Below, in pieces: positions 1,681 to 63,900 of a stretch of 64,000 nucleotides of DNA. Source of the DNA: Dillenia suffruticosa (Eukaryota > Streptophyta > Magnoliopsida > Dilleniales > Dilleniaceae). Location of the stretch: assembly GCA_033439265.1 (NCBI GenBank), contig JAVTVX010000001.1, positions 13,844,608 through 13,908,607 of the forward strand. The letters are read 5' to 3'. Each line of letters begins with the position of its first letter. The first letter of the stretch is position 1. A model generated the notes under the pieces. The model was not told where the DNA came from. It ran no database searches and saw only the letters and a program-made list of their open reading frames with translations. A program made the translations under genes and the position numbers.

Positions 1681-2200
1681 ATAATGCTTGGGTTTCGGAC
1701 ATAATCGATATATTTATTCGGACATATTTCAAAAAGTAGTTCAAAATATATTTCAGTTACCGGAATAAAAATTAGAGAGTCGATAGAAAATAAATACAGC
1801 ATTAAAAATTTAAAGAAGTTATTTGACTGTAATTAAACTTCAAAAATATTTTTAAATACTATTTAAAATTTTACTTTTTTAAGAAAATTTTTATGGTTTT
1901 GACATATTATCAATTTAATAAACTATTGATCTTATATATCATTTTATCAAAATTATTGCAAAGTGTGCTTCCTTTTCTTTTTCTTAAGTAACAAATTCAT
2001 ATATTATGTGAATATTTATTCTATGAAAATTAGGAATATTTTAATGTGATATTCGACCAAAACAAACATAGAAAAGGAAGGAAATTTGGAAAGGTAGCAA
2101 ATCATAAATGCAATTTTCTAAATATATGATATGTTTCTCTAACATTTAATCTAAGTACTTGTTTGAATTGTCACTTAGAATCAAATTTGAAATGATTCTT
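1681..2200. repeat. Left array flank L, copy 1
   Basis: A ~0.5-kb non-coding segment that precedes a tRNA-5S block in four places: 1681-2200, 14228-14720, 35870-36340 and 58047-58530. It begins around ATAATGCTTGGGTTTCGGAC and ends where the 5S-derived tail of the first monomer starts. Homology between copies with different upstream sequence (U1 at copies 1 and 4, segment D at copies 2 and 3) begins at the same base, so this edge is a duplication or recombination junction. Confidence 0.75.
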
Positions 2201-4634
2201 GTCCCCATTCTAAATTTTTACCATTAAACCCCAATGGCTTAGCATTTGAGTGCCGGCCTTGCAAGCCTTGTAAACTGAAGGTCTGTTGTCAATCTTGCAT
2301 GGGGGCAATAAATTTGAAATTCTTCGGTCTAAATGGAAGGTCTTATTATTTTGGGTTCGATCATACCAACACTAATGCATGACTGACTTATTTTGGGTAC
2401 GATCATACCAGCACAATGAGAGACCTCATCGAAAGTTCTTGTGTTACACCACTTATTTGAATTGTCAATGAGAATCAAATTTGAAATGATTTCTATTCTC
2501 ATTCTAAGCATTTATCGATAAGCCCCTATAGCTCAGTGGTAGATCATAAGTATTGTAAACTGAAGTTCTGTAGTTCAATCTTGCACTAATGTATGGTTGA
2601 TTTATCTTGGGTACGATCATACTAGCACGATGAGTGACCTCTTCGGAAGTTCTCATGTTTCACCCCTTGTTTGAATTGTCGGTGAGAATGAAATTTGAAA
2701 TGATTCCTGTTCCAATTCAAAGCTTTAATCAATAAGCCCTAATAGCTTAGTAGTAGAGTGTCAATCTTGTAAACTGAAGGTTTGTAGTTCGATGTTGCAT
2801 GGGGGCAATAATATTGAAATTCTCTAGTTCAAATGGAAGGTCTTATTATTTTGGGTGCGATCATGCAAGCACTAATGCATAGTTGACTTATTTTGGATAC
2901 TGTCATACCTGCACTCTAACTTATTTTGGGTACTATCATACGAGCACGGACCTAGTCAGAAGTTCTCGAGTTACACCCGTCGTTTGAATTGTCGTGCAAA
3001 TCAAATTTGAAATGATTCCTATTCCCATTCTAAGTTTTTATTGAGAAACCCCTATAGATTTGTGGTAAAGCGTCGATCTTGTAAACTGAAGGCCTACATG
3101 GGGGCAATAATTTCAAAATTCCTTAGTTGAAACGGAAGGCCTTATTATTTTGGATGTGATCATACAAGTACAAATGCATGGCTGATATATTTTGGGTACT
3201 ATCACAACAGCACGATGAGTGACCTCCTTGAAAGTTTTCGTATTGTACCCATCATTTGAATTGTCGGTGAGAATCAAATTTGAAATGATTCTTGTTCCCA
3301 TTCTAAGATTTTATCGATAAGCTCCTATAACTCGATGGTAGAGCGTCAGTCTTGTAATGTGTAGTTCAATTTTGCATGGGGGCAATAATTTTGAAATTCT
3401 TTAGTTTAAACAGAAGGTTCCATTATTTTGGGTGCGATCATACCAGTAGTAATGCATGGTTGACTTAATTTGAGTATGATCATACCAGCATGATGAGTGA
3501 CCTCCTTAGAAGATCTCGTGTTGCACCCCTCGTTTGAATTACCAGTAAGAATCAAATTTGAAATGATTCTTGTCCCCATTCTAAATTTTTACCATTAAAC
3601 TTCTATAGCTGAGTGGTAGAGCGGTATTCATGTAACCTGAAGGTTTGTAGTTCAATCCTCCATGGGGGCAATAATTTTGAAATTCTTTGGTTTAAACAGA
3701 AGGTCTCATTATTTTGGATGCGATTATATTGGTATGAATGCATGGTTGACATATTTTGGGTACGATCATACCAGCACGATGAGTGATTTGGGAAGATGTT
3801 GTGCTGCACCCCTCGTTTAAATTGTCGATAAGAATAAAATTTGAAATGATTTTTGTTCCCATTCTAAAATTTTACCATTAAACCTTACAGCTTAGTGGTA
3901 AAGCGTCAGTCTTGTAAATTGAAGATCTATAGTTCATTCCTGCGTGGAGGCAATTGTTTTGAAATTTCTAGATTTAAACAGAAGGTCTTATTATTTTGGG
4001 TTTGATCATACCAGCAACAATGCATGGTTGATTTATTTGGGTACAGTCATACCAGCACTATTGGTGACCTCCTCAAAAGTTACTGTGTTGCACCCTTTGT
4101 TTGAATTGTAGATGAAAATCAAATTTGGAATGATTCCTATTCCCATTCTAATTTTTTATCGATAAGCCCCTATAGTTTAGTGGTAGAACATTAGTCTCGT
4201 AAATTGAAAGTTTGTGATTCAATCCTACGCTAATGCATGGCTGAGTTATTTTGGGTACTATCATACCAGCACGATGAGTGACCTCCTTGGAAGTTTTCAT
4301 GTTGCACCCTTCATTTAAAATGTCACCGAGAATGAAATTTGAAATGATTCCTGTTCCAATTCTAAGTTTTTATCTATAAGCCCCTATAGCTCTATGATAG
4401 AGCATTTGTTTTGTAAACTGAAGGTTTGTAGTTCAATCCTGCATAGGAGCAATAATTTTGTAATTCTTTAGTTCAAATGTATGGTCTCATTATTTTCGAT
4501 GCGATCATACAAGCACTAATGCATGGCTGACTTATTTTGGGTACTATCATGCCAGCACGATGAGTGACCTCATCGTTGTCATATGAATCAAATTTGAAAA
4601 GATTCCTGTTCCCATTATGAGATTTTATTGATAC

Positions 4635-4693
4635 GCTCCTATAGCTCAGTGGTAGAGCATCAATCTTGTAAACTGAAAGTCTGCATGGGAGCA
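4635..4693 (+). pseudogene. tRNA-Thr-like unit lacking the T arm, compensated acceptor stem
   Basis: This unit is 59 nt rather than 72 because 13 nt between two CTG trinucleotides are gone, which removes the T arm and promoter box B. The D arm (GCTC/GAGC) is intact. The anticodon loop reads CTTGTAA (UGU, Thr). The acceptor stem is GCTCCTA with TGGGAGC, so the usual C3-G70 pair is replaced by T3-A70. That is a two-sided change keeping the stem paired. Without box B it is unlikely to be a normal Pol III gene. Confidence 0.7.
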
Positions 4694-4907
4694 ATAATTT
4701 TGAAATTCTATAGCTTAAATGGAAGGTCTCATTATTTTGGGTGTGAGCATATAAGTACTAATGCATGGCTGACTTATTCTGGGTATGATTATACTAGCAC
4801 GATGAGTGGTCTCCATGGAAGTTCTCGTGTTGCAGCCTTCTTTTGAATTGTCAGTGAGAATCAAATTTTAAATGATTCCTATTTCCATTTTAATTTTGTA
4901 TTGATAA

Positions 4908-4979
4908 GCCTCTATAGCTTAGTGGTAGAGCATTAGTCTTGTAAATTGAAGGTCTGTAGTTCGATCCTGTATGGGGGCA
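4908..4979 (+). tRNA. tRNA-Thr(UGU)-like gene, foldable with wobbles
   Basis: The unit is 72 nt long. Acceptor GCCTCTA pairs with TGGGGGC using two wobbles. D stem is GCTT/GAGC, anticodon stem TTAGT/ATTGA with two wobbles, loop CTTGTAA (anticodon UGU), T stem TGTAG/CTGTA with two wobbles, T loop TTCGATC. The A-box-like TAGCTTAGTGG and B-box-like AGTTCGATCC are present, and TTTT follows the discriminator base after four nucleotides. The many G-U pairs suggest decay from the consensus. The duplicate at 60986-61057 is slightly better. Confidence 0.5.
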
Positions 4980-5193
4980 ATAATTTTGAAATTCTTTACT
5001 TTAAACGGAAGGTTTTATTATTTTGGATACGATCATACCAACACTAATGCATCGTTTATTTATTTTGGGTATGATCATACCAGCACGATGAGTGAGCTCC
5101 TCAGAAGATCTCGTGCTGCACCCCACGTTTGAATTGTCTGTAAGAATCAAATTCGAAATGAATCCTATTCCCATTCTAAATTTTTACTATTAA

Positions 5194-5265
5194 GTCCCTA
5201 TAGCTTAGTAGTAAAGCCCTAATCTTGTAAACCAAAGGTTTATAGTTGAATCCTTCATAGGGACA
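5194..5265 (+). pseudogene. tRNA-Thr-like unit with GTCCCTA/TAGGGAC acceptor stem
   Basis: The acceptor stem forms seven Watson-Crick pairs but differs from the family consensus on both strands (T2-A71, and T6-A67 instead of T-G). The anticodon and T stems carry several mismatches, so the molecule would not fold as a tRNA. The same two-sided acceptor change is seen at 61267-61338, and partly at 46161-46232 and 7029-7100, so it marks a subfamily. Confidence 0.65.
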
Positions 5266-7139
5266 ATAATATTGAAATTCTTTGGTTTAAACGGAAGGTC
5301 TCATTATTTTGGTTGCGATTATACCAGTATTAATGCATGGCTATCTTATTTTGTGTGCGATCATACCAGCAAGATGAGTGACCTCCTAGGAAGTTTTCGC
5401 GTTGCACCCCTCATTTGAATTATCGATGAGAATCAAATTTGAAATGATTCCTATTCCCAATATGTTTTTATCGATCAGTCCCTATAGCTCAGTAATAGAG
5501 CGTTAGTCTTGTAAACTAAAGGCCTATAGTTCAATCTTGCACTAATGCATGGCTATGTTATTTTGGGTTTGATCATAACAACATGATGAGTGGCCTCCTC
5601 AAAAGTTCTCGTGTTACACCCCTCGTTTGAATTGTTAGTGAAATTAAATTTGAAATGATTTTTGTTTCCATTCTAAGTTTTTATCGATAATCTCCTATAA
5701 CTCAATGGCAGAGCGTCAGTCTTGTAATTGTAGGTCTATAGTTTGATCCTGCATGGTGGCAATAATTTTGAAATTCTTTAGTTTAAACGGAAGGTCTCAT
5801 TATTTTGGATGCGGTCATATCAGCACTAATGCATGGCTTACTTATTTTGGGTACGATCATACCAGCACATTGAGTGCCCAGCTGGGAAGTTCTCGTGTCG
5901 CACTCCTTGTTTGAATTGTTGATGAGAATCAAATTTGAAATAATTCCTGTTATCATTCTAAAATTTTACCATTAAACCCTTATAGCTCAGTGGTATAGCG
6001 TTAGTCTTGTAAACTGAAGGTCTGCAGCTCAATCTTGCACTGGGGCAATAAGTTTGAAAATTTTCGATTTAAACAGAAGGTATCATTATTTTGGGTGCAA
6101 TTATACCTGTTTTAATGCATGGCTGACTTATTTTGGTTATGATCATACCAACATGATGAGTTCCTACCTTGGAAGTTCTCGTGTTGCACCCCTTGTTTGA
6201 ATTATCGATGAGAATCAAATTTGAAATGATTTCTATTCCCATTTCAAGTTTTTATCGATAAGACCCTATAGCCCAGTGTAAAGCGTCAGTCTTGTAAGCT
6301 TAAGTTCTGTAGTTCAATCCTGCTCTTATGTATGGTTGATTTTTTTTGGGGGTACGATTATACCAGTACGATGAGTGACCTCCTTGAAAGTTCTTGTATT
6401 ACACCCCTCGTTTGAATTGTCAGTGTGAATCAAATTTGATATGATTCCTGTTCCCATTCTATGTTTTTATTGATAAACCCCTATAGCTCAGAGGTAGAAC
6501 GTCAGTCTTGGAAATTGAATGTCGGTAGCTTGATCCTGCAAGAGGGCAATAATTTTGAAATTCTTTAGTTTAAGCGGAAGGTCTCATTATTTTGGGTGCG
6601 ATCATATCAGTACAAATGCATGGTTAACTTATTTTGGGTACGATCTTACTAGCACGATGAGTGACCTCGTCGAAAGATCTCCTGTTGCGTCCATCGTTTG
6701 AATTGTTGGTAAGAATCAAATTCTTGCTCCCATTCAAAATTTTTACCAATAAGCCCTTATAACTTAGTGGTAGACCATTAGTCTCGTAAACTGAAGGTCT
6801 GTTGCTCAATCTACATGGGTTAGGAACTTTGAATTTTTTCGGTTTAAATGGAAGGTCTCATTATTTTGGGTGCAATTATACCATCACTGCCGACTTTTTT
6901 TAGGTACAATCATATTGGTACGATGAGTGACCTTCTTGAAAGTTCTTGTGTTGCACCCCTCGTTTGAATTGTCGATGAGAATCAAATTTGAAATGATTTC
7001 TATTCCCATTATAAGTTTTTATCTATAAGTACCTATAGGTCGGTGGTAGAGCATCAGTCTTGTAAACTGAAGGACTGTAGTTCGATCCTGCATGGGGACA
7101 ATAACTTTGAAATTCTTTAGTTTATATGGAAGGTCCCAT

Positions 7140-7860
7140 TATTTTGGGTATGATCATACCGGTATTGATGCATTGGGGCAATAACTCTGAAATTCTTTAG
7201 TTTAAATGGAAGGTCTTATTCTTTTGGGTATGATCATACCTACACTAATACATCCATCAGAACTCCACAACTTATTTTGTGTGTGATCGTACCAGCACTA
7301 ATGAACCAGTCCATCAGAACTCTGCAATTCAACGTGCTTGGATGAGAGTTGTACAAGGATGGATGACCTTATTGGATGTTCTTGTGTTGCACATCTCTCT
7401 TACAAAGAGTAAATATTTTAGATGTTTTGGTTCATCATTCAAAGCGATGACAACATCGCCTTGGAGGAGAGTTGTACTAGGATTGATGACCTTCTCAAAA
7501 GATGTATCCATCAAAACTGTTCAATTGAACGTGCCTGGATGAGAGTTGTATTAGGATAGGTAAGCATCTCGGAAGATGCATCCATCAAAACTTCGCAATT
7601 AAACGTGTTTGGATGAGAATTGTACTAGGATAGGTGACTTTCCTGAAAGTTCTCATGTTGCATCCCTCATTTACAAAGAGTGAACATTTTAGACACTTTG
7701 GGTCATCATTCAAAGTGATTGCAACATAGCCTTGGATGAGAGTTGTGTTAGGATTGGTGACCTTCTTGGAAATTCTTGTGTTGTATGCCTTATTTATAAA
7801 GAGTGAATATTTTAAATATTTTGAATCATTATTCAAAACGATAGCAATATAGATGGGGAC
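7140..7860 (+). repeat. 5S-only zone R, copy 1
   Basis: Downstream of block A the tRNA part disappears and 5S rRNA-derived pieces continue in the same orientation. I see a truncated 5S start (7150-7180), a 5S nt 1-50 piece (about 7217-7270), a nearly full copy (7279-7395), then three repeats of 5S nt ~35-104 at ~70-80 bp spacing, recognisable by GAGAGTTGTAYTAGGAT (about 7460, 7540 and 7615), and a last 3' piece near 7735-7790. The spacer word TTTACAAAGAGTGAAC recurs between pieces. Homologous zones lie at 10850-11460, 32460-33070, 48195-48870 and 63170-63900. Confidence 0.8.
7279..7395 (+). pseudogene. 5S rRNA pseudogene, nearly full length
   Basis: About 117 nt that follow plant 5S rRNA from end to end. 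Recognisable blocks in order are GTACCAGCACTAATG (nt ~11-25), CCATCAGAACTC (nt ~35-46), CGTGCTTGGATGAGAG (nt ~57-72), GGATGGATGACC (nt ~81-92) and TTGTGTTGCA (nt ~106-115). Unlike the array monomers it keeps the region of the internal control elements. There are changes along its whole length and no clean T run directly after it, so it is taken as a relic. The duplicate is at 63335-63451. Confidence 0.8.
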
Positions 7861-8009
7861 ATGAATTATAAGATTCAATTTAATTGAATGAAATAGAGAA
7901 GTGTACATGGAGTTCTCTACGATTGCATGATACTATTGCAGTTGAAGGAGAAGTTTTATAGAATTTAGCTAAGATCTGTATTTTTGTATGAAATAAGAAT
8001 ATTCAAATG

Positions 8010-8345
8010 GATATATAGTAAAACTAAAAAAGATAGATTAGAAATGAAAAGATACATATGGAGTTAGGAATGACTTTAGTTATAGATAAAATAAAAGAAT
8101 ATCGTTTAAAATGGTTTGAACATATACAATAAATATTTTAAAACATACCAGTTAGAAGGTACGAGATTTCAAATATAGGATATTTAATCAAATATCGGGG
8201 TAAGCTATTAAAAAGTTGGATGTAAATTATCCGCATAAATATATGTGTTAAGAGTTTAGTTAAAAATATGATTTTGATAAGAATTAGTAGCGTAGGAGAA
8301 TTCAAATAAATTGAATTAATATACTTTTATCATCATCATTATCAT
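8010..8345 (+). mobile_element. LINE (L1-type) ORF2 3' relic
   Basis: Translation of parts of this stretch resembles the C-terminal tail of plant L1 reverse transcriptases. It has a DKIKEYRLKWFEHIQ segment (family form roughly KLRE-RLRWFGHVQ) and, near the end, DKN--RRRIQIN (family form roughly DR-EWRRRIH). It is full of stops and followed by an ATC/T-rich tail near 8325-8350. Homologous relics lie at 11640-11995 and 33250-33630, each downstream of a 5S-only zone, so the relic was carried along by segmental duplication rather than inserted repeatedly. Confidence 0.6.
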
Positions 8346-8439
8346 TTTTTTAGATTTAATTGGATAGTTTATTTTTAATATATTCTTTTTATTCTTTTTA
8401 TTATTTTTGTTTTATATTCTCTATTTTTGTTTTCAAATT

Positions 8440-8955
8440 TTAATATATTCTTTTTATACCCTAATGGCGGTTACGGCTTGCTTCCGGGACTTTTCATGTA
8501 ACTCCTTTATTACGTTAGATGCCTTAATATGGATAAAATTAAAATACATACTAGCCCTTCTCAGTCTATTCCTGTATGGAGATGAGGCCCAATCCATATC
8601 GAAGTTCTCAAGAATTTTACACAGAATCATTTGTGATGCCAAAACTGCTTATACCCTGCATCTTACTCTTGAGAAAGAAAGACCCTTAACAAAAGAAGAA
8701 AGCTTTCAGCATTGGACAGCTTCTTTGGAGTGAAAAACCATAGAGGAGTTGCTGGTCGAAACTGACATGCATGGTACAAAAGGAAATAGGATTCAATATT
8801 GTATTTGGCAAGCGTCACAGTTCCTATCAAATGCAACCATATGTTGTGGGTGGAGGCCGCCTTTTGATTGTCCAGCTGCTCGCCACTCTATATTAGGATA
8901 TATGCTCGTGTTAGTACTACAAGTAATTCTATGTTTTGTACTTGGGATGGATCCC
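8440..8955 (+). repeat. Unidentified low-copy segment C, copy 1
   Basis: A ~0.5-kb segment of more balanced composition than its surroundings, starting near TACCCTAATGGCGGTT and ending near TGTACTTGGGATGGA. It recurs at 12713-13195, 34336-34818 and 51427-51855. It carries overlapping short frames, among them 108 codons at 8407-8733 and 69 codons at 8749-8958. I cannot assign a family. Base composition and small indels between copies would fit a decayed host gene or exon. Frames shared by the 12.98 and 34.6 kb copies prove nothing, because those copies are near identical. Confidence 0.45.
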
Positions 8956-9480: not shown

Positions 9481-9491
9481 AAACTATTTAA

Positions 9492-9509: not shown

Positions 9510-9842
9510 GTATTTTGTGTTAGACCAACGGCATTTAGGTTACTCATTTAACTTAGTTCAAATACCGTAAAACTTATTTTAAATTAGTCTTTTGATACTT
9601 ATTTTTTTATTTTTAAAATCCGAATTCGATATCTTAATTAAAAGAGTTTAATATCCATCTTAAAACTATATATAACAATACGTAATTAGTTCAATAACTA
9701 AACACTGATAACTATATATAACAACGGCTTTGGGCTTTCAGTTTAAATTCTATGTTTTGTACTTGGGAAGGAACCTTAGCAGCTGAGCTAAATTCAAATT
9801 ATTATTATTCCATGTGATCCGAAATGGTATATTAGGATTCAA

Positions 9843-10850
9843 CTCGATGAGTGGCCTCCTCGGAAGTTCTCGTGTTGCATCCCTTGTTTAAATTGTTGAT
9901 GAGAATCAAATTTGAAATGATTCTTGTTCTTATTCTATGTTTTTATCGATAAGCCCCTATAGCTTAGTGGTAAAGCGTCAGTCTTATAAATTTAAGTTCT
10001 GTAGTTCAATCCAGCACTAAAGCATGGCTGACTTATTTTTAGTACGATAATGCCAGCACGATGAGTGACCTCCTCAGATGTTTTTATGTTACACCCCTAG
10101 TTTGAGTTGTCTATAAGAATCAAATTTGAAATGATTCCAGTTCCCATTCTAAGTTTTTATCGATAAGCCCCTATAGCTCAGTGGTAGAGCGTTAGTCTCG
10201 TAAACTGAAGGTCTGTAGTTCTATCCTACATGGGGGCAATAATTTTGAAATTCTTTAATTTAAATGGAAGGTCTCATTATTTTGGGTGCGACATACTAAG
10301 ACTAACACATGGCTGACTTAATTTGGGTACAATCATACCAGCATGATAAGTGACCTCATCGAAAGATCTCGTGTTGCACCCTTTGTTTGAATTGTCTGTA
10401 AGAATAAAATTTGAAATGATTCTTATTCCCATTCTAAAGTTTTGCCATGAAGCCCATATATCTTAGTAGTAGAGCGTCAATCTTGTAAACTGAAGGTCTG
10501 TATTTCAATCCTGCATGGGGGCAATAATTTTGAAATTCTTCGGTTTAAATTGAAGGTCTCATTATTTTGGGTATGATTATACCAGCACTAATGCATGGTT
10601 GACTTATTTTGGGTACTATCATACCAGTATGATGAGTGATCTCCTCGGAAGTTCTCGTGTTGTACACCTCATTTGAATTGTCAATGAGAATCAAATTTAA
10701 AACCTGTTCCCGTTCTAGATTTTTATCGATAAGCCGCTATAGCTCGGTGGTTGAGCATTGGTCTTGTAAACTGAAGATTAGTAGTTTGATTTTGCCTGGG
10801 GGCAATAACTTTGAAATTCTTTAGTTTAGACAGAAGGTCTCATTATTTTG
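9843..10850 (+). repeat. tRNA-Thr/5S composite tandem array, block B (4 units)
   Basis: Four tRNA-like units at 9953 (short type, fused to 5S), 10167, 10452 and 10733, with the usual 5S-derived spacers. The block begins abruptly within the 3' part of a mini-5S. It is the same four-unit group as 31576-32428 at the end of block C. Confidence 0.85.
10167..10238 (+). tRNA. tRNA-Thr(CGU)-like gene
   Basis: The unit is 72 nt long. Acceptor stem is GCCCCTA/TGGGGGC (one wobble), D stem GCTC/GAGC, anticodon stem TTAGT/ACTGA (one wobble), loop CTCGTAA giving anticodon CGU, still threonine. The T stem TGTAG/CTACA is fully Watson-Crick. The T loop is TTCTATC: position 57, normally a purine and part of box B, is T, which may weaken promoter and tertiary contacts. 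TTTT follows four nucleotides after the final A. A copy identical in all these features lies at 31790-31861. Confidence 0.55.
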
Positions 10851-11460
10851 GGTACGATCATACCAGTACTAATGCATCCATCAAAACTCTGCAACATATT
10901 TTGTGTATGATCATACCAGCACTAATGCACCAGTCCATTATTACTCTGTAGTTAAGCATGCTTGGATAAGAATTGTACAAGATGGATGACCTTATTGGAA
11001 GTTCTTGTATTGCAGCTCTCATTTACAAATAGTGAACATGTTAGATATCTTAATTCATCATTCAAAGCGATGACAACATAGCTTTGGATGAGAGTTGTTC
11101 TTGGATTGGTGACCTTCTCAAAAGATGCATCCATCAGGATTCCGCAATTAAACGTTCTTGGGTGAGAGTTTTACTTGGATAGGTGACCTTCTTGGAAGAT
11201 GCATCGATCATAAATCCGCAATTAAACATGTTTGTATGAGAATTGACTAGGATAGGTGACCTTCCCGAATGTTCTTGTGTTGCACCACTCATTTACAAAT
11301 GGGTCATCATTCAAAGTAATGGCAACATAGCCTTGGATAAGAGTTGTATTGGGATTGGTGACCTTCTCGAAAGTTCTCATGTTGTATCCCTCATTTACAA
11401 GAGTGAACAATTTAGATATTTTGGATCATCATTCAAAATGATGACAATATAAATGAGAAT
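10850..11460 (+). repeat. 5S-only zone R, copy 2
   Basis: Same architecture as 7140-7860: a 5S 5' piece, one nearly full 5S copy at 10903-11018, then repeated 5S nt ~35-104 pieces near 11090, 11160 and 11230, and a final 3' piece near 11330-11390. The spacer word TCATTTACAAATAGTGAAC occurs near 11020. It is part of the 21.6-kb-spaced duplication. Confidence 0.8.
10903..11018 (+). pseudogene. 5S rRNA pseudogene, nearly full length
   Basis: Follows plant 5S rRNA throughout: ATACCAGCACTAATGCACC (nt ~12-30), AGTTAAGCATGCTTGG (nt ~50-65), AAGATGGATGACC (nt ~80-92) and CTTGTATTGCA at the 3' end. The A-box-like region AGTTAAGCATG is better kept than in the 7279 copy. Scattered changes and the lack of a terminal T run argue for a relic. 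The duplicate is at 32527-32642. Confidence 0.8.
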
Positions 11461-14227: not shown

Positions 14228-14720
14228 TAATGCTTGGGTTTCGAACATAATCGATAAATTTATTCGGACATATTTCAAAAAGTAGTTCAAAACATATTTC
14301 AGTTACCGGAATAAATATTAGAGAGTGGATAGAAAATAAATACAACATTAATAATTTAAAGGTGTTATTTGATTGTAATTAAACTTTAAAAATATTTTTA
14401 AATACTATTTAAAATTTTATTTTTTTAAGAAAATTTTTATGGTTTTGACATATTGTCACTGTAATAAACTACTGTTCTTATATATGATTTTAACAAAATT
14501 ATTGTAAAGTGTGCTTTCTTTTCTTTTTCTTTTCTTTGGTAACAAATTCATATATTATGTGAATATTTATTCTATGAAAATTAGGAATATTTTAATGTGA
14601 TATTCCACCTAAACAAACATAGAAAAGGAAGGAACTTTGGAAAGGTAGCAAACCATAAATGCAATTTTCTAAATATATGATATGTTTCTCTAACCTTTAC
14701 TCGAAGTCCTTGTTTGAATT
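14228..14720. repeat. Left array flank L, copy 2
   Basis: Homologue of 1681-2200, here preceded by segment D instead of U1. It runs directly into the first monomer of block C. Confidence 0.75.
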
Positions 14721-16899
14721 GTCGGTGAAAATCAAATTTGAAATGATTTTTGTTCCCATTCTAAAGTATTACCATTAAGCCCCAATAGCTCATGAGTAGA
14801 GTGCCAATCTTATAAATTGAAGGTCTATAGTTCAAACTTGCATGGGGCAATAATTTTGAAATTCTTTGGTTTAAATGGAAACTCTCAATATTTTGGGTGC
14901 GATCATCAAGCATTAATGCATGGCTTATTTATTTTGGGAGCAATCATACCAACATGTTGAGTGACCTCCTCGAAAGTTCTTGTGCTGCAACTTGTTTAAA
15001 TTGTTGATGAGATTCGAATTTGAAATGATTCATGTTCCCATTCTATGTTTTCATCAATAAGCCCTTATAGTTCAGTGGTAGATATAGTCAGTCTTGTAAA
15101 CTGATGGTCCATGGTTCAATCCTGCACTAATGAATGGTTGACTTATTTTGGGTTCGATCATACTGGCACAATGAGTGACCTTCTCGGAAGTTCTCATATT
15201 GCACACCTCGTTTGAATTGTTGGCGAGAATCAAATTTGAAATGATTCTTGTTCCAATTCTAAGTTTTTATCGATAAGCCTCTATAACTCAGTGGTAGACT
15301 GTCAGTCTTGTAAACTAAAGGTCTGTAGTTCAATCCTGCATGGGAGTAATAATTTTGAAATTCTTTAGTTCAAAAGGAATGTCTTAGTAATTTGGGTGCG
15401 ATCATACAAGTACTAATGCATGACTGACTTATTTTGGGTACTATCATATACCAGCACGATGAGTGACCCCTTCGGAAGTTCACGATTTGTACTTCTCATT
15501 CAAATTGTCATCTAAATCAAATTTGTAATGATTCCTGTTTCCATTCTAAATTTTTATCGATAAGCCCCTATAGCATAGTGGTAGAGCGTCAGACAAGTGA
15601 ATGAAGGTCTATAGGGGGCAATAATTTTGAAACTTTAGTTTAAATAGAAGGTGTCATTATTTTTGTTGTGATCATACAAGCACAAATGCAAGTTGACTTA
15701 TTTTGGGTATTACCGTACCGACAAGATAAGTGACCTCCTCAGAAGTTCTTATGTTGCACCCTCGATTGAATTGTCGGTGAGAATCAAATTTGAAATGATT
15801 TCTATTCACATTCTAAGATTTTATCGATAAGTGCTTTGAGCTCAGTGGTAGAGCTTTAGTCTTGTAAATAGAAAGTTTGTAGTTCGATCTTATGCGGGGG
15901 CAATAATGTTGAAATTCATTAGTTTAAACAGAAGGTCACATTATTTTGGATGTGATCATGGTAGTACTAATGCATGGCTGACTTATTTTGGGTTCGATCA
16001 TACCAGCATGATGGGTGAAATTCTCGGAAGATCCCGTGTTGCACTCCTCATTTGAGTTGTTGGTAAGAACCAAATTCGAAATGATTCTTGCTCCCATTCT
16101 ATATTTTTACCATTAAGCCCCTATAGTTGAGTGGTAGAGCATCACTCTTGTAAATTGAAGGTTTGTAGTTCAATCCAACTTGTAAGAAATAATTTTGAAA
16201 TTCTACGGTTTAAACGAAAGGTCACAATACTTTGGGTGCGATTATAACGGCACTAATGCATCGCTGACTTATTTTGGGTACGGTCATACCAACACAATGA
16301 GTGACCTTGGAAGATTTAGTGTTGCACCCCTCATTTGAATTGTTGATAAGAATCGATCTAGAAATGATTCTTGTTTCCATTCTAAAATTTTACCATTAAG
16401 CTTGTATAGCTCAGTGGTAGAGTGTCAGTCTTGTAAATCGAACGTTTGTAGTTCAGTCTTTCATGGGGGGAGTAATTTTGAAGTTCTTCGGTTTAAACGG
16501 AAGGTCTAATTATTTTGGAGGCGATCATACCATCACTAATACATAGCTGAGTTATTTTGGGGACAATCATACCTGCACGATTGTGACTTCCTAAGAAGTT
16601 CTCATTTTGCACCCCTTGCTTGGATTGTCGATGAGAATCAAATTTGAAATGATTCCTATTCCCATTCTAATATTTTTATTGATTAACCCCTACATCTCAA
16701 TGGTAGAGTGTTAATATTATAAACTGAAGATCTGTAGTTCAATCCTGCACTAATGGATGGTTGACTTATTTTGGGCACGATCATACTAGCATGATGAGTG
16801 ACCTCCAAGGAAGTTCTCATGTTGCACCACTCGTTTGAATTGCCACTAATAATCAAATTTAAAATGATTCCTGTTCCAATTCTATGTTTTTATCGATAA

Positions 16900-16971
16900 G
16901 CCCTTATAGCTCAGTGGTAGAGCGTCAGTCTTGTAAACTGAAGGTCTGTAGTTCGATCCTGCATGGGGGCA
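16900..16971 (+). tRNA. tRNA-Thr(UGU)-like gene, complete cloverleaf
   Basis: The unit is 72 nt long. Acceptor stem is GCCCTTA/TGGGGGC (two wobbles), D stem GCTC/GAGC with loop AGTGGTA, anticodon stem TCAGT/ACTGA fully paired, loop CTTGTAA (anticodon UGU), variable AGGTC, T stem TGTAG/CTGCA (one G-U), T loop TTCGATC, discriminator A. Box A (TAGCTCAGTGG) and box B (AGTTCGATCC) match plant tRNA promoters, and TTTT lies at 16976-16979. No CCA is encoded, as expected for a nuclear gene. The following spacer is shortened. The structure is plausible; expression is not shown. Confidence 0.65.
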
Positions 16972-18250
16972 ATAATTTTGGGTAACTAATTTTGGGTACT
17001 CTCATACCAGTACGATGAGTGAACTTCTCGAAAATTTTCATGTTGTATCCCTCATTTGAATTGACGGTGAAAATCAAATTAGAAATGATTCTTGTTCCCA
17101 TTCTATATTTTTATCGATAAGCCCCTATAACTCAGTGGTACAGCGTCACTCTTATAAACTTAAGGTCTATAGTTCAGTCCTGCATAAGGGAAATAATTTT
17201 GAAATTCTTTAGTTTAAATGGAAGGTCTCACAATTTTGGGTGCAATCATACCAAAGCTAATGCATGGTTAACTTATTTTGGGTAAGATCATACCAGCACG
17301 ATAAGTGACGACGGAAGATCTCATGTTGCACCCCTCATTTGAATCATTGACGAGAATCAAATTTGAAATGATTCTTGTCCCTATTCTAAATTTTTACCAT
17401 TAAGCGGCTATAGCTCAGTGGTAGAGCGTCAATCTTAAAAACTAAAGGTCTGTCATTCGATCTTGCTTGGGGGCAATAATTTTAAAAGTCTTCAGTTTGA
17501 ACAAGAGGCCTCATTATTTTGGGTACGATTATAAAAGCACTAATGCGTGGCTGACTTATTTTGGGGATGATCATACTAGCACGATGAATGACCTCCTAGG
17601 AAGTTCTTTTGTTATACCACTCATTTGAATTGTCAATGAGAAATAAATTTGAAATGATTTTTGTTCCCATTCTAATTTTTTATTAATAATTTCTTTTAGC
17701 TCAATGGTAGAGTGTTAGTCTTCTAAACTAAAGGCCTGTAGTACGATTTGGCATGGGGGCAATAATTTTGACATTTTTTAGTTTAAATAGAAGGTCTCAT
17801 TATTTTGGGTGCAATTATATAGCACCAATGCATGGCAGACTTATTTTGGGTACGATCATACCAGCACTATGGAAGGCTCGGAACGTCTTGTGTTGCACCT
17901 CTCATTTGAATTTTCAATAAGAATCAAATTTAAAATGTTATTCCCATTCTAAATTTTTACAAATAAGACCCTATGGCTCAGTAGTAGTGTGCTAGTCTTG
18001 TAAATTGAAGATCTATAGTTCAATCTTGTGTGAGGGCAATAATTTTGAAATTCTTTGGTGTAAACGGAAAGTCTCAATAATTTGGGTGCAATCGTCTAAC
18101 AATAATGCATGGCTGATTTGTTTTGGGAACGATCACACCAGCGCGATGAGTGACCTCCTTGAAAGTTCTTGTGCTACACCTTGTTTAAATTGTCAGTGAG
18201 AATCAAATTTGAAATGATTCATGTTCCCATTCTAAGTTTTTATCAAATAA

Positions 18251-18322
18251 GCCCCTATAGCTCAGTGGTAGAGCGTCAGTCTTGTAAACTGAAGGTCTAT
18301 AGTTCAATCCTGCATGGGGGCA
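18251..18322 (+). tRNA. tRNA-Thr(UGU)-like gene, one T-stem mismatch
   Basis: Acceptor GCCCCTA/TGGGGGC, D stem GCTC/GAGC and anticodon stem TCAGT/ACTGA are intact, with anticodon UGU. The T stem TATAG/CTGCA has one A-C mismatch, and the T loop is TTCAATC. TTTT follows the discriminator A after four nucleotides. It is close to the array consensus but slightly less stable than 29028-29099. Confidence 0.5.
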
Positions 18323-48194: not shown

Positions 48195-48870
48195 ACCGAC
48201 ACTAATGCATGGGGGTAAAAACTTTGAAATTCATTAGTTTAAATGCAAGATCTCATCATTTTGGGTGTGATCATACCTGAACTAATGCATCTGTCAGAAC
48301 TCCGCAACTTATTTTGTATATGATCATACTAGCACTAATGCACCAGTCCATCAGAACTATGCAATTCAGTGTGCTTGCACATCTCATTTACAAAGAGTGA
48401 ACATTTTATATATTTTGGTTCATCATTCAAAGCGATGACAACATCGCCTTGGATGAGAGTTGTATTGGGATTGGTGACCTTCTGAAAAGATGCATCCATC
48501 AGAACTATGCAATTAAACGTGCTTGGATAAGAGTTGTACTTGGATAGGTGAGCATCTCGGAAGATGCATCCATCAGAACTTCTCAATTAAACGTGTTTGG
48601 ATGAGAATTGTATTAGGATAGGTGACTTTCTCAAAAGTTCTCGTGTTGCACCCCTCATTTACGAAGAGTGAACATTGTAGACAATTTGGGTCATCATTCA
48701 AAGTGATGACAACATAGCCTTGGATGAGAGTTGTATTAGGATTAGTGACCTTCTTGGAAGTTCTCATTTTGTGCCCCTTATTTATAAAGAGTAAGTGTTT
48801 TAGATATTTTGGATCATCATTCAAGATGACAACAATATAGATGAGTACGTGAATCATAAGTTTCAAGCTG
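48195..48870 (+). repeat. 5S-only zone R, copy 4
   Basis: Same plan as 7140-7860. A 5S 5' part at 48316-48388 (ATCATACTAGCACTAATGCA...TCAGAACTATGC) jumps to the 3' end region, then 5S nt ~35-104 pieces recur near 48450, 48520 and 48590, with a last piece at 48720-48790. Confidence 0.75.
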
Positions 48871-48874
48871 ATTG

Positions 48875-58046: not shown

Positions 58047-58530
58047 ATAATGCTTGGGTTTCGGACATAATCGATATATTTATTCGGACATATTTCAAAA
58101 AGTAGTTCAAAACATATTTCAGTTACTGGAATAAAAATTAGAGAGTCGATAGAAAATAAATACAGCATTAAAAATTTAAAGAAGTTATTTGACTGTAATT
58201 AAACTTTAAAAATATTTTTAAATACTATTTAAAATTTTACTTTTTTAAGAAAATTTTTATGGTTTTGACATATTATCAATTTAATAAACTATTGATCTTA
58301 TATATCATTTTATCAAAATTATTGCAAAGTGTGCTTCCTTTTCTTTTTCTTAAGTAACAAATTCATATATTATGTGAATATTTATTCTATGAAAATTAGG
58401 AATATTTTAATGTGATATTCGACCGAAACAAACATAGAAAAGGAAGGAAATTTGGAAAGGTAGCAAATCATAAATGCAATTTTCTAAATATATGATATGT
58501 TTCTCTAACATTTAATCTAAGTACTCGTTT
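58047..58530. repeat. Left array flank L, copy 4
   Basis: Homologue of 1681-2200, preceded by U1 (56648-58046) as at the window start. Confidence 0.75.
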
Positions 58531-61500
58531 GAATTGTCAGTTAGAATCAAATTTGAAATGATTCTTGTCCCCATTCTAAATTTTTACCATTAAACCCCAA
58601 TGGCTTAGCATTTGAGTGCCAGCCTGCCAGCCTTGTAAACTGAAGGTCTGTTGTCAATCTTGCATGGGGGCAATAAATTTGAAATTCTTCGGTTTAAATG
58701 GAAGGTCTTATTATTTTGGGTTTGATCATACCAACACTAATGCATGACTGACTTATTTTGGGTACAATCATACCAGCACAATGAGAGACCTCATCGAAAG
58801 TTCTTGTGTTACACCCCTTATTTGAATTGTCAATGAGAATCAAATTTGAAATGATTTCTATTCTCATTCTAAGCATTTATCAATGTGCCCCTATAGCTCA
58901 GTGGTAGAGCATAAGTATTGTAAATTGAAGTTCTGTAGTTCAATCTTGCACTAATGTATGGTTGATTTATCTTGGGTACGATCATACTAGCACGATGAGT
59001 GACCTCTTCGGAAGTTCTCATGTTTCACCCCTTGTTTGAATTGTTAGTGAGAATGAAATTTGAAATGATTCCTGTTCCAATTCAAAGTTTTAATCAATAA
59101 GCCCCAATAGCTTAGTAGTAGAGTGTCAATCTTGTAAACTGAAGGTTTGTAGTTCGATGCTGTATGGGGGCAATAATATTGAAATTCTCTAGTTCAAATG
59201 GAAGGTCTCATTATTTTGGGTTCGATCATGCAAGCACTAATGCATAGCTGACTTATTTTGGATACTGTCATACTCGTACTCTGACCTATTTTGGGTACTA
59301 TCATACGAGCACAAACCTACTTAGAAGTTCTCGAGTTACACCCCTCGTTTGAATTGTCGTGCGAATCGAATTTGAAATGATTCCTATTCCCATTCTAAGT
59401 TTTTATCGATAAACCCCTATAGATTTGTGGTAAAGCGTCGATCTTGTAAACTAAAGGCCTACATGGGGGCAATAATTTTGAAATTCCTTAGTTGAAACGG
59501 AAGGCCTTATTATTTTGGATGTGATCATACAAGTACAAATGCATGGCTGATAGATTTTGGGTACTATCACAACAGCACGATGAGTGACCTCCTTGAAAGT
59601 TCTCGTATTGTACCCATCATTTGAATTGTCGGTGAGAATGAAATTTGAAATGATTCCTATTCCCATTCTATGATTTTATCGATAAGCTCCTATAACTCGG
59701 TGGTAGAGCATCAGCCATGTAATCTGTAGTTCAATCTTGCTTGGGGGCAATAATTTTGAAATTCTTTAGTTTAAACAGAAGGTTCCATTATTTTGGGTGC
59801 GATCATCCAATAGTAATGCATGGTTGACTTAATTTGAGTATGATTATACCAGCATGATGAGTGACCTCCTTAGAAGATCTCGTGTTGCACCACTCGTTTG
59901 AATTACCAGTAAGAATCAAATTTGAAATGATTCTTGTCCCCATTCTAAATTTTTACCATTAAACTCCTATAGCTCAGTGGTAGAGCGGTATTCATGTAAA
60001 CTGAAGGTTTGTAGTTCAATCCTCCATGGGGGCAATAATTTTGAAATTCTTTGGTTTAAACAGAAGCTTTCATTATTTTGGGTGTGATTATATTGGTATG
60101 AATGCATGGTTGACATATTTTGGGTACGATCATACCAGCACGATGAGTGACTTGGGAAGATGTTGTGCTGCACCACTTGTTTAAATTGTCGATAAGAATA
60201 AAATTTGAAATGATTTTTGTTCCCATTCTAAAATTTTACCATTAAACCCCTATAGCTTAGTGGTAAAGCATCAGTCTTGTAAACTGAAGATCTATAGTTC
60301 CATCCTGCGTGGAGGCAATAGTTTTGAAATTTTTTGATTTAAACAGAAGGTCTTATTATTTTGGGTTTGATCATACCAGCAACAATGCATGGTTGACTTA
60401 TTTGGGTACAGTCATACCGGCACTATTGGTGACCTCCTCAAAAGTTACTATGTTGCACCCTTTGTTTGAATTGTAGATGAAATCAAATTTGAAATGATTT
60501 CTATTCCCATTCTAAGTTTTTATCGATAAGCCCCTATAGTTTAGTGGTAGAACATTAGTCTCGCAAATTGAAAGTTTGTAGTTCAATCCTACGCTAATGC
60601 ATGGCTGAGTTATTTTGGGTACGATCATGCCAGCACGATGAGTGACCTCATCGTTGTCATGTGAATCAAATTTGAAAAGATTCCTGTTCCCATTATGAGA
60701 TTTTATTCATACGCTCCTATAGCTCAATGGTAGAGCATCAATCTTGTAAATTGAAGGTCTGCATGGGGGCAATAATTTTGAAATTCTATAGCTTAAACGG
60801 AAGGTCTCATTATTTTGGGTGTGAGCATATAAGTACTAATGCATGGCTGACTTATTCTGGGTATGATTATACTAGCACGATGAGTGGCCTCCATGGAAGT
60901 TCTCGTGTTGCGGCCTTCTTTTGAATTGTCAGTGAGAATCAAATTTTAAATGATTCCTATTCCCATTTTAATTTTGTATTGATAAGCCCCTATAGCTTAG
61001 TGGTAGAGCATTAGTCTTGTAAATTGAAGGTCTGTAGTTCGATCCTGTATGGGGGCAATAATTTTGAAATTCTTTACTTTAAACGGAAGGTTGTATTATT
61101 TTGGATGCGATCATACCAACACTAATGCATGGTTTATTTATTTTGGGTATGATCATACCAGCACGATGAGTGAGCTCCTCAGAAGATCTCGTGCTGCACC
61201 CCACGTTTGAATTGTTGGTAAGAATCAAATTCGAAATGAATCCTATTCCCATTCTAAATTTTTACTATTAAGTCCCTATAGCTTAGTAGTAAAGCCCTAG
61301 TCTTGTAAACCAAAGGTTTATAGTTGAATCCTTCATAGGGACAATAATATTGAAATTCTTTGGTTTAAACGGAAGGTCTCATTATTTTGGTTGCGATTAT
61401 ACCAGTATTAATGCATGGCTGTCTTATTTTGTGTGCGATCATACCAGCAAGATGAGTGACCTCCTAGGAAGTTTTCGGACGATGAGAATCAAATTTGAAA

Positions 61501-63170
61501 TGATTCCTATTCCCATTCTATGTTTTTATCGATCAGTCCCTATAGCTTAGTAATAGAGTGTTAGTCTTGTAAACTAAAGGCCTATAGTTCAATCTTGCAC
61601 TAATACAAGGCTATGTTATTTTGGGTTCGATCATAACAACATGATGAGTGGCCTCCTCAAAAGTTCTCGTGTTACACCCCTCATTTGAATTGTTAGTGAA
61701 ATTAAATTTGAAATGATTTTTGTTCCCATTCTAAGTTTTTATCGATAATCTCCTATAACTCAATGGCAGAGCGTCAGTCTTGTAACTGTAGGTCTATAGT
61801 TTGATCCTGCATGGTGGCAATAATTTTGAAATTCTTTAGTTTAAATGGAAGGTCTCATTATTTTGGATGCGGTCATATTAGCACTAATGCATGGCTTTCT
61901 TATTTTGGGTACAATCATACCAGCACATTGAGTGCCCAGCTGGGAAGTTCTCGTGTCATACCCCTTGTTTGAATTGTTGATGAGAATCAAATTTGAAATG
62001 ATTCCTGTTACCATTCTAAAATTTTACCATTAAACCCTTATAGCTCAGTGATATAGCGTCAGTCTTGTAAACTGAAGGTCTACAGCTCAAACTTGCACTG
62101 GGGCAATAAGTTTGAAATTTTTTGATTTAAACAGAAGGTCTCATTATTTTGGCTGCAATTATACCTGCTTTAATGCATGGCTGACTTATTTTGGTTATGA
62201 TCATACCAACATGATGAGTTCCTACCTTGGAAGTTCTCGTGTTGCACCCCTTGTTTGAATTATCGATGAGAATCAAATTTGAAATGATTCCTGTTCCCAT
62301 TTCAAGTTTTTATCGACAAGCCCCTATAGCCCAGTGTAAAGCATCAGTCTTGTAAACTTAAGTTCTGTAGTTCAATCCTGCTCTTATGTATGGTTGATTT
62401 TTTTTGGGGTACGATTATACAAGTATGATGAGTGACCTCCTTGAAAGTTCTTGTGTTACACCCCTCGTTTGAATTGTCAGTGTGAATCAAATTTGATATG
62501 ATTCTTGTTCCCATTCTATGTTTTTATTGATAAACCCCTATAGCTCAGAGGTAGAACGTCAGTCTTGGAAATTGAATGTCGGTAGCTTGATCCTGCAAGA
62601 GGGCAATAATTTTGAAAATCTTTAGTTTAAGCGGAAGGTCTCATTATTTTGGGTGCGATCATATCACCATAAATGCATAGTTAACTTATTTTGGGTACGA
62701 TCTTACTAGCACGATGAGTGACCTCGTCGAAAGATCTCCTATTGCGTCCTTCATTTGAATTGTTGGTAAGAATCAAATTCTTGCTCCCATTCAAAATTTT
62801 TACCAATAAGCCCTTATAACTTAGTGGTAGACCATTAGTCCTGTAAACTGAAGGTCTGTTGCTCAACCTACATGGGTTAATAATTTTGAATTTCTTCGGT
62901 TTAAATGGAAGGTCTCATTATTTTGGGTGCAATTATACCATCACTGCTGACTTTTTTTAGGTACAATCATACTGGTACGATGAGTGAACTCCTTGGAAGT
63001 TCTCGTGTTGCACCCCTCGTTTGAATTGTCAATGAGAATCAAATTTGAAATGATTTCTATTCCTATTATAAGTTTTTATCTATAAGTACCATAGGTCGGT
63101 GGTAGAGCATCAGTCTTGTAAACTGAAGGACTATAGTTCGATCCTACATGGGGACAATAACTTTGAAATT
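58531..63170 (+). repeat. tRNA-Thr/5S composite tandem array, block F (18 units)
   Basis: Eighteen units in the same order as block A, minus the monomer that corresponds to 4380. The best unit is 60986-61057. Subfamily marks seen in A (T-arm-less unit near 60714, GTCCCTA/TAGGGAC unit at 61267-61338, UGG anticodon near 62568) are all present. Confidence 0.85.
60986..61057 (+). tRNA. tRNA-Thr(UGU)-like gene, foldable
   Basis: Acceptor GCCCCTA/TGGGGGC, D stem GCTT/GAGC, anticodon stem TTAGT/ATTGA (two wobbles), loop CTTGTAA, T stem TGTAG/CTGTA (two wobbles), T loop TTCGATC, then TTTT after four nucleotides. All stems close without a true mismatch. It is the duplicate of 4908-4979 with a better acceptor stem. 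Confidence 0.55.
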
Positions 63171-63900
63171 CTTTAGTTTATATGGAAGGTCCCATTATTT
63201 TGGGTATGATCATACTGGTATTGATGCTTTGGGGCAATAACTCTGAAATTCTTTAGTTTAAATGGAAGGTCTTATTCTTTTGGGTATGATCATACCTATA
63301 CTAATACATCCATCAGAACTCCACAACTTATTTTGTGTGTGATCGTACTAGCACAAATGAACCAGTCCATCAGAACTCTGCAATTCAGCGTGCTTGGATG
63401 AGAGTTGTACAAGGATGGATGACCTTATTGGATGTTCTTGTGTTGCACATCTCTCTTACAAAGAGTAAATATTTTAGATGTCTTGGTTCATCATTCAAAG
63501 CGATGACAACATCGCCTTAGAGGAGAGTTGTACTAGGATTGATGACCTTCTCAAAAGATGTATCCATCAAAACTGTGCAATTGAACGTGCTTGGATGAGA
63601 GTTGTATTAGGATAGGTAAGCATCTCGGAAGATGCATCCATCAAAACTTTGCAATTAAACGTGTTTGGATGAGAATTGTACTAGGATAGGTGACTTTCCC
63701 GAAAGTTCTCATGTTGCATCCCTCATTTACAAAGAGTGAACATTTTAGACACTTTGGGTCATCATTCAAAGTGATTGCAACGTAGCCTTGGATGAGAGTT
63801 GTGTTAGGATTGGTGACCTTCTTAGAAGTTCTCGTGTTGTATGCCTTATTTATAAAGAGTGAATATTTTAAATATCTTGAATCATCATTCAAAACGATAG
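63170..63900 (+). repeat. 5S-only zone R, copy 5
   Basis: Duplicate of 7140-7860 with the same series of 5S pieces; the window ends shortly after it. Confidence 0.8.
63335..63451 (+). pseudogene. 5S rRNA pseudogene, nearly full length
   Basis: Duplicate of 7279-7395: GTACTAGCACAAATGAACC, CCATCAGAACTCTGC, AGCGTGCTTGGATGAGAG and GGATGGATGACC in 5S order. Confidence 0.8.

Follow-up and report, generated by a model that had tools for sequence, protein, structure and literature searches.

A decayed satellite of tRNA-Thr and 5S rRNA pieces in Dillenia suffruticosa and its possible origin in a LINE-made chimera

The birth of a satellite is seldom visible, because homogenisation erases the founder. 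The stretch of Dillenia suffruticosa DNA analysed here (64,000 nucleotides, hereafter the window) carries a tandem repeat built from pieces of a tRNA-Thr(UGU) gene and of 5S rRNA, which raises the question of how these parts came to be joined and multiplied. Our preferred answer, to which we assign a probability of roughly 0.55, is that the locus is a dead single-locus satellite whose founder was a LINE-made chimera of tRNA-Thr(UGU), 5S rRNA and a LINE 3' part. The block ends seem to hold a less-edited unit, so that its components and the order in which they stand are readable there.

Arrangement and copy number

The repeat unit is a monomer of about 285 bp with a 72-nt tRNA-Thr(UGU)-like part and two 5S pieces in one orientation. 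ARAGORN, Rfam and the profile search agree on this composition, which had been proposed in the preliminary description. Profile search with chaining yielded 147 copies in the window, a few of them pieces in block tails; the count depends on the method and falls to 146 with a single-sequence query. All 147 lie on the plus strand, and the profile search found no minus-strand match in the window. The tRNA-Thr(UGU) core is present in 126 copies, close to the approximately 129 units claimed earlier, the first 5S piece in 134 and the second in 123, while 114 copies combine the tRNA core with the second 5S piece. ARAGORN called 22 tRNA genes in the window (18 of them Thr, all plus), and 78 matches reached the Rfam gathering score (74 tRNA and four 5S, all plus).

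The satellite had been assigned the span 2200 to 63900; it actually comprises five blocks divided by other sequence, with 34,346 bp of monomers in total. Monomers fill blocks 1, 3 and 4 as given in Table 1, and end at 10923 in block 2 and at 63363 in block 5. These blocks belong to a complex of about 190 kb, and the satellite on C1 is made up of hundreds of decayed tandem unit copies. Over a 264-kb stretch, 320 of the 395 gaps separating successive copies measure 5 bp or less, which is the head-to-tail arrangement of satellite DNA. Array-plus-flank blocks are 82-96% identical across kilobases, and 26 copies have in common a deletion of about 70 bp that costs the tRNA acceptor stem its 3' strand. 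Among the matches listed, the unit occurs only on C1, at a single locus. The upstream flank also matches C1 only, among the matches listed, so there is no empty site for comparison. The LTR retrotransposon that interrupts block 4, presumably gypsy-like, is bordered by a 5-bp duplication, ATCAT (36527-36531 and 42826-42830, letters read by eye).

Table 1. Positions of array blocks, block tails and associated features in the window
Feature	Position	Strand	Basis or remarks
Upstream flank common to block starts	1681..2160	+	Copies 88-98% identical
Block 1, tRNA-5S monomers	2161..7307	+	nhmmer monomer matches
Block 1 tail: 5S 1-50, near-full-length 5S (7279-7395), then alternating 5S and LINE pieces	7226..7797	+	Rfam 5S 50.5 bits; module map
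Block 1, 5'-truncated LINE part after last 5S piece	7798..8457	+	Similar to L053 473-667 and 721-790; block-end homology reaches 8457
Block 2 (5' truncated), monomers and beginning of 5S tail	9839..11018	+	nhmmer, Rfam 5S, block comparison
Block 3, the window's longest array	14712..32546	+	nhmmer, block comparison
Best-kept tRNA-Thr(UGU) copy	29028..29099	+	68.6 bits; 21/21 pairs intact; 100% identity to native genes on C15, C19, C24 and C30
Block 3 tail: 5S 1-50, 5S 7-115, 5S and LINE pieces, LINE up to TTGTTGTTATTATTATT microsatellite	32474..33730	+	Module map, similarity
Block 4, array interrupted by LTR retrotransposon	36340..48337	+	nhmmer, block comparison
LTR retrotransposon within a monomer	36532..42825	-	Retrotrans_gag 39.4 bits in one ORF
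Block 4 tail: LINE piece and 5S pieces, none full-length	48263..48867	+	Module map
Block 5, monomers and near-full-length 5S (63335-63451)	58526..63451	+	nhmmer, Rfam 5S

Sources of the parts

Counting itself and a second copy on C1, the best-kept tRNA copy is matched exactly and over its full length at least 19 times in the genome. In the best 40 of 376 candidates, C15 accounts for at least 14 of these matches, C1 for two, and C19, C24 and C30 for one apiece. The 45 bp 3' of the satellite tRNA resemble the 3' flank of native C19 tRNA-Thr genes, with a score of 40 that was reached by none of 1000 shuffles, and the flank of a second C19 gene agrees likewise. This similarity stops at a terminator-like TTATTTT, and the next base is 5S rRNA +1. 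For the 3' flanks of other native tRNA-Thr loci, the respective score was reached by 90 (C30), 538 (C24, one gene) and 104 (C15) of 1000 shuffles; a second C24 gene and C4 were aligned only, without shuffles. BLAST similarity to C30 runs 43 bp beyond the tRNA in some copies, so a weaker resemblance in the flank may extend to that locus. On the 5' side, comparison of the satellite with native tRNA-Thr genes gave scores reached by 604, 280, 858 and 658 of 1000 shuffles (C30, C24, C15 and C19, respectively). The stretch of about 70 bp upstream of the satellite tRNA, here termed 'up', has no source recognised in the native 5' flanks by this comparison or among the genome matches; all 44 of its matches fall within the complex (best 40 of 319 candidates scored).

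The first 5S piece corresponds to 5S 1-27 and is identical to native 5S at 27/27 positions. The second joins 5S 1-20 to 82-119 (19/20 and 35/38 identical), and both begin at nucleotide 1. The 5S words noted in the preliminary description are real, as the pieces score 54 and 61 against shuffle maxima of 24 and 26 (1000 shuffles each). Nucleotides 21-81, which the second piece lacks, presumably hold most of the internal promoter, and the first piece ends at 27. The native 5S genes found lie on C15 in a 331-bp unit. Their spacer was not recognised in the whole monomer (score 18, shuffle mean 17.8); the first piece scored below the shuffle mean against it, and the second scored 18 (shuffle mean 13.3, sd 2.0, maximum 24). 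A 5S rDNA array would carry a full 5S gene and the native spacer in each unit; here, there are only pieces.

A lack of matches to the 5S covariance model had been put forward as a refuting result. At E<=1 in 43000-49000, it left the monomers unmatched, its sole 5S match being a block tail at 48505-48654, but this miss is not decisive because both 5S pieces are fragments of the model. In the whole window it gave four gathering matches, all at block ends, and near-full-length 5S stands at four of the five ends, block 4 being the exception.

What follows the 5S at the mapped block ends is a truncated LINE. This order was found in the four tails mapped (blocks 1, 3 and 4 and one past the window), and similar junction letters occur at other block ends. 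The mapped tails hold 12 places where 5S passes into LINE. The LINE match begins at position 473-474 of the LINE sequence L053 in ten of them and at 504 in two, and the 5S reaches 115-126 at 11 junctions and 64 at one. Identity as a LINE is suggested by an RVT_1 match (E 3.6e-05, 24 bits, below the Pfam cut-off of 29.6). Matches to the LINE 3' part fall outside the complex in 34 of 40 scored cases (best 40 of 1214 candidates); the 5S-LINE junction is spanned by none of 30 matches outside it (best 40 of 434 candidates scored). As in chimeric insertions, a small-RNA end adjoins a LINE that is 5'-truncated and extends to its own 3' end, as judged from its microsatellite.

No target-site duplication was detected beyond the LINE microsatellite: the match to the final 30 bp of 'up' was equalled in 301, 345 and 351 of 500 shuffles, and that to the whole of 'up' in 110, 45 and 298. 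Such a duplication could have been lost through age. An initial weak signal (9 and 21 of 1000 shuffles for blocks 2 and 3; 514 and 510 for blocks 1 and 5) was rejected, as the region lies inside the LINE. The same applies to a seeming return, past the LINE, to native C19 flank sequence (15 and 17 of 500 shuffles in two of eight comparisons, 193-394 in the other six). At the C19 tRNA-Thr locus, which forms a tandem repeat of its own, a LINE-like RT fragment (L031) lies 3' of the tRNA; it matches L053 at 73% over 79 columns (E 1e-6), and two additional pieces match less strongly.

Decay of the array

No sign of retained tRNA or 5S function was seen in the sequence of the array. The monomer alignment comprises 118 of 146 copies, 28 partial ones being left out. 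In 72 of the 118 (tRNA part 70-74 nt, 70 distinct), 83.8% of tRNA stem cells are paired, against 84.0% after shuffling, with no compensatory change. All 21 pairs are kept in 6 of the 59 copies whose tRNA is exactly 72 nt; cloverleaves kept intact by selection, which would mark a functional tRNA cluster, were not observed. Divergence outside CpG amounts to 0.129 in the tRNA module, 0.112 in 'up' and 0.081 in the middle. An A box, a GTTCGANNC B box and TTTT within about 40 nt occur together in eight copies, or in 18 with a relaxed B box (GTTCRANNC). Transcription is conceivable for a few intact tRNA copies at most.

Monomer identity is 0.787 for all pairs and 0.785 for adjacent ones, with a best-match value of 0.96 for blocks 1 and 5. 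No local homogenisation between neighbours was detected at lags 1-8, where identity stays flat at 0.782-0.787, as befits a decayed array; such homogenisation is common in satellite DNA but not essential to it. C>T changes in the array stand at 0.279 (CG), 0.239 (CHG) and 0.110 (CHH). The corresponding values in a flank pair are 0.078, 0.026 and 0.032, based on few changes (15/192 CG, 5/189 CHG). The CG and CHG bias suggests, indirectly, past methylation and an array lying in methylated, silent chromatin.

Origin of the founder and related systems

The 5S-LINE joins at the array ends suggest that the satellite began with an error in retrotransposon copying. One partner of the chimera would be a tRNA-Thr(UGU) transcript that extended as far as its terminator. 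While copying the RNA of its own element, a plant LINE reverse transcriptase would have switched template, first to the 5S rRNA 3' end and next to that of the terminator-ended tRNA precursor, and the three-part product would have been inserted by the LINE machinery. 'Up', the tRNA and a truncated 5S would then have multiplied through unequal exchange instead of retroposition, the monomers would have diverged (about 21% between copies) and array-plus-flank blocks would have been duplicated later. This course of two template switches, which would make the locus a stillborn SINE turned satellite, is offered tentatively, at somewhat less than even odds. Dispersed retroposed copies with a Pol III promoter, as in a SINE, were not found: 'up', the upstream flank and the monomer occur on C1 only, among the matches listed.

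Without any RNA intermediate, break repair or ectopic recombination of tRNA-Thr, 5S and LINE relic segments could produce the same junctions. The missing target-site duplication leaves room for such a DNA-level fusion, and the C19 locus, tandem and with its LINE-like RT fragment, indicates that tRNA and LINE pieces do meet in DNA. However, the 5S starts exactly at +1 (by simple arithmetic, a random break in a 331-bp unit would fall within 1 nt of it with p about 0.009), the T-run is exactly where the tRNA flank stops, and the 5S stops near the transcript end, where the LINE starts. We regard fusion at the DNA level as rather unlikely. A 5S rDNA array that acquired a tRNA gene, one of two directions left open by the preliminary description, is the least credible origin. 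It would account for 5S pieces in most units (134/147 and 123/147), but the monomer resembles the native 5S spacer no more than shuffles do, the 5S genes found are in the 331-bp unit on C15, and the DNA after the tRNA is native tRNA-gene flank. The evidence thus favours a tRNA unit gaining 5S, while the tRNA-5S composite, its tandem amplification and its decay stand as first described. The LINE partner, the block-wise segmental duplication and the single locus are additions to that description.

A living Pol III locus, either a tRNA-Thr cluster or a dicistronic tRNA-5S array kept for expression, is very improbable. Fully paired copies and those with both boxes and a terminator are at odds with a tRNA module that diverges at least as much as the spacer, stems lacking compensatory change, the acceptor strand lost from 26 copies and 5S pieces without the middle of the gene. 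There is equally little to recommend a tandem derivative of a TRIM retrotransposon, whether Cassandra (5S in its LTRs) or Helenus (tRNA in its LTRs). The sequence TGGTATCAGAGC, which we take to be a Cassandra-type PBS, gave five matches at two mismatches against 3.27 expected, and none closer; the comparison relied on this PBS and on the 5S neighbours. Both neighbours were identified as tRNA-gene flank and LINE, from which the absence of LTRs is judged, and the monomer matches at one locus, not as dispersed copies, among the matches listed. In favour of this reading, long tandem arrays are reported for Cassandra (PMC7215508).

If true, the three-RNA chimera would link LINE template switching onto small RNAs to the birth of a satellite and provide an example from plants in which 5S and tRNA are fused to a LINE. 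The locus is also an annotation trap, with 22 tRNA genes called among stems that bear no sign of selection, and 5S or tRNA probes might mark a locus that is neither.

In the dicistronic tRNA-5S genes of Yarrowia, the tRNA lies directly upstream of 5S, and these are working genes. The order in the satellite is alike, but its 5S is fragmentary and its tRNA stems are not maintained, so the comparison drawn earlier does not extend to function. The plant tandem tRNA clusters (Arabidopsis tRNA-Pro and Tyr-Tyr-Ser, maize tRNA-Ile) are likewise tandem nuclear units, described in the accounts available as tRNA genes; the satellite differs in its 5S pieces, decayed tRNAs and LINE at the mapped block ends. 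The Arabidopsis SYY cluster is reported to carry CG and CHG methylation and to be silent in the majority of tissues (PMC12308677, PMC12652284, PMC11700998). Cassandra arrays, as outlined in the cited source, are also 5S-derived plant tandem arrays (PMC7215508), from which the satellite is set apart by having no recognised LTR neighbours, no PBS excess and no dispersed copies among the matches listed. The TRIMs Helenus and Ajax similarly contain tRNA- or 5S-derived sequence, but are presented not as satellites but as LTR elements, each with a single small RNA (PMC10886601).

Further related systems are the 5S/LINE and tRNA/LINE chimeras, the SINE3-type 5S SINEs and HaSE3, which, as summarised in the cited sources, also combine a Pol III RNA with a LINE or SINE 3' part and for which template switching has been proposed (PMC13174262, PMC3272025). 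Of the L1 chimeras formed with 5S and with tRNA in mammals, most are described there as antisense and truncated, a pattern unlike that of the satellite chimera (PMC13174262). In HaSE3, 5S is joined to a tRNA-derived SINE body, whereas the satellite holds its tRNA and 5S parts side by side. The known 5S and tRNA chimeras, as far as these sources describe them, are dispersed and come from animals; the satellite is a plant case in tandem, with subsequent block duplication.

Unit composition, blocks and extent of the satellite

Chained profile matches recover 147 unit copies in the window, all on the plus strand. The preliminary description had seen one continuous array; the copies instead form five blocks (see table). 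Its composite unit, a tRNA-Thr joined in the same orientation to two 5S pieces, is borne out: the tRNA core is present in 126 of the 147 copies, the first 5S piece in 134 and the second in 123, and 114 of the 126 tRNA-bearing copies also carry the second piece. The consensus monomer consists, in order, of a part upstream of the tRNA ('up', 66-70 bp), the tRNA (72 bp), a middle part (~45 bp), the first 5S piece (27 bp), a link (15 bp) and the second 5S piece (~58 bp). On the window, ARAGORN reports 22 tRNA genes, 18 of them Thr, and Rfam gives 74 tRNA and four 5S matches above gathering. The 5S covariance model has no match to the monomers, an outcome named earlier as a refutation; it is not decisive because the 5S pieces are fragments. 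Both align to native 5S far above shuffles: the first is identical at 27/27 positions (score 54; maximum of 1000 shuffles 24), and the second matches at 19/20 and 35/38, with positions 21-81 absent (score 61; maximum of 1000 shuffles 26).

The genome comprises 596 Mb in 37 contigs. The 264 kb around the window hold 396 copies, of which 341 have the tRNA core, amounting to 93.8 kb of monomer; the complex extends beyond this stretch. All listed matches to the monomer (36 of 68 candidates scored, weaker matches lying beyond these), to 'up' (40 of 319 scored) and to the upstream flank (36 of 36 scored, with weaker matches again beyond) lie on C1, the contig of the window. As far as these searches show, the satellite is therefore a single locus of ~190 kb.

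Copies differ by ~21% on average. Adjacent copies resemble each other no more closely than any two copies do (identity 0.785, against 0.787 over all pairs), and identity stays level from lag 1 to lag 8; thus, homogenisation of the array has stopped. Best-match identity between blocks reaches 0.96 for copies of blocks 1 and 5 and 0.98 for block 2 copies in block 3. The blocks have common flanks (~0.5 kb upstream, and also downstream), and kilobase stretches of block plus flank are 82-96% identical to one another. By these comparisons, the blocks were duplicated later than the monomer was amplified. A 70-bp deletion is common to 26 copies; the ~1.6-kb spacing of four of them in block 3 is perhaps the trace of an old higher-order repeat. 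Block 4 is split by a 6.3-kb LTR retrotransposon (gag match; ATCAT flanking both sides). The related LTR retrotransposon pair is perhaps one insertion duplicated along with its block.

Coordinates of the satellite, related loci and neighbouring features (window positions unless a contig is named)
Feature	Position	Remarks
Window	C1:13844608-13908607	
Block 1	2161-7307	
Block 2	9839-10923	
Block 3	14712-32546	
Block 4	36340-48337	
Block 5	58526-63363	
Best-preserved tRNA-Thr(UGU) copy	29028-29099 (+)	
70-bp-deleted copies, block 3	20936, 22557, 24189, 25764	
Two related LTR retrotransposon copies	36532-42825; ~24.2-18.1 kb before window	93% identical; adjoin satellite blocks
Very A+T-rich tandem repeat	49787-50083	unit 148 bp, 93% matches
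Ten block tails	between C1:13831946 and 14016376	counted from similarity matches
tRNA-Thr(UGU) tandem array, separate	C15:1550772-1573278	~764-bp repeat, each holding an intact gene along with several tRNA-like pieces; one 3-kb stretch read by eye showed no recognisable 5S
tRNA-Thr copies, at least three	C19:3951699-3953738	~1 kb apart, one degenerate; LINE-like reverse transcriptase fragments nearby
Dispersed 5S-like sequence	C10:26507800-26508500	without first part of 5S; other flanks

Sources of the tRNA, 5S and LINE parts

At least 19 full-length 72-mers in the genome are identical to the best-preserved copy (40 of 376 candidates scored); of those scored, C15 carries 14 and the complex two, while C19, C24 and C30 have a single one each. 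The satellite consensus differs from that copy by one base, in the T loop. Downstream of the tRNA, the next 45 bp correspond to the 3' flank of a C19 tRNA-Thr gene, at a score reached by 0/1000 shuffles (C30 90/1000, C24 538/1000, C15 104/1000), and the 3' flank of a second C19 gene agrees too. This similarity breaks off at TTATTTT, a T-run resembling a Pol III terminator. Of the four native tRNA-Thr 5' flanks compared, none scores above shuffles. The copied piece would therefore have the extent of a tRNA precursor, beginning at about the first tRNA base and ending with the T-run.

5S nucleotide +1 directly follows this T-run. The best 47 5S matches scored genome-wide all lie on C15, in arrays of a 331-bp unit. 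Against the native 5S spacer, the whole monomer scores 18 (shuffle mean 17.8), as does the second 5S piece alone (shuffle mean 13.3, maximum 24).

The 5S/LINE tails at the 3' ends of blocks retain more 5S than the monomers. Four were mapped (blocks 1, 3 and 4, and one past the window). Each runs from 5S 1 or 6 to 50 through a longer 5S (3-116, 7-115 or 7-126; only 7-64 in block 4), a LINE piece and alternating 5S and LINE pieces into LINE running on. Of their 12 5S-then-LINE junctions, 11 have 5S extending to 115-126; the LINE starts at 473-474 of L053, a dispersed copy on C18, in ten and at 504 in two. L053 encodes reverse transcriptase, by an RVT_1 match (E 3.6e-05, 24 bits) below the 29.6 cut-off. 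The LINE part near the 3' end, which in blocks 2 and 3 extends to a TTG/TTA microsatellite, is dispersed genome-wide (of 40 matches scored, 34 fall outside the complex), and the 5S-LINE junction is spanned by none of 30 matches outside it, 28 covering LINE and two 5S.

Decay of the array

The satellite is probably not alive functionally. Over 72 tRNA parts, of which 70 are distinct, pairing holds in 83.8% of stem cells, against 84.0% after shuffling. Stem pairs in which both partners have changed number 8, below the 10.4 of the shuffles, and the tRNA part is conserved no better than the spacer. C>T changes amount to 0.279 (CG), 0.239 (CHG) and 0.110 (CHH) in the array, and to 0.078, 0.026 and 0.032 in the duplicated flank, where changes are few. 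A CHG excess in the array alone is as expected if it once lay in methylated heterochromatin. In the Ser/Tyr tRNA cluster of Arabidopsis, which is silent for the most part, mCG exceeds mCHG and mCHG exceeds mCHH, though the authors doubt methylation as the cause of silencing (PMC12308677). Eight copies retain an A box, a B box and a near T-run, so a few may be weakly transcribed.

Origin of the chimera and comparison with known systems

The tRNA, 5S and LINE parts all join at or near transcript ends. This is the pattern produced when a LINE reverse transcriptase switches templates, which is the most likely origin of the chimera. The enzyme would start on LINE RNA, next switch to 5S rRNA, entering at its 3' end, and last to a tRNA precursor, entering at its U-rich end. 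In animals, LINE chimeras with 5S or tRNA, and SINEs derived from them, are documented (PMC13174262, PMC3272025). Against template switching count the lack of a target-site duplication at the satellite, the lack of a source for 'up' among scored matches (40 of 319) and the mostly antisense, truncated state of 5S and tRNA in mammalian LINE chimeras (PMC13174262). Fusion of the parts at the DNA level is a serious rival, supported by the C19 tRNA locus, which is itself tandem and bears LINE-like fragments.

The open-access literature searched yielded no plant satellite of comparable composition, which is not proof of absence. Earlier reports describe tandem tRNA clusters, arrays that carry 5S, and chimeras of LINE with 5S or tRNA, each on its own (PMC7215508, PMC3272025, PMC13174262, PMC12652284, PMC11700998, PMC10886601).
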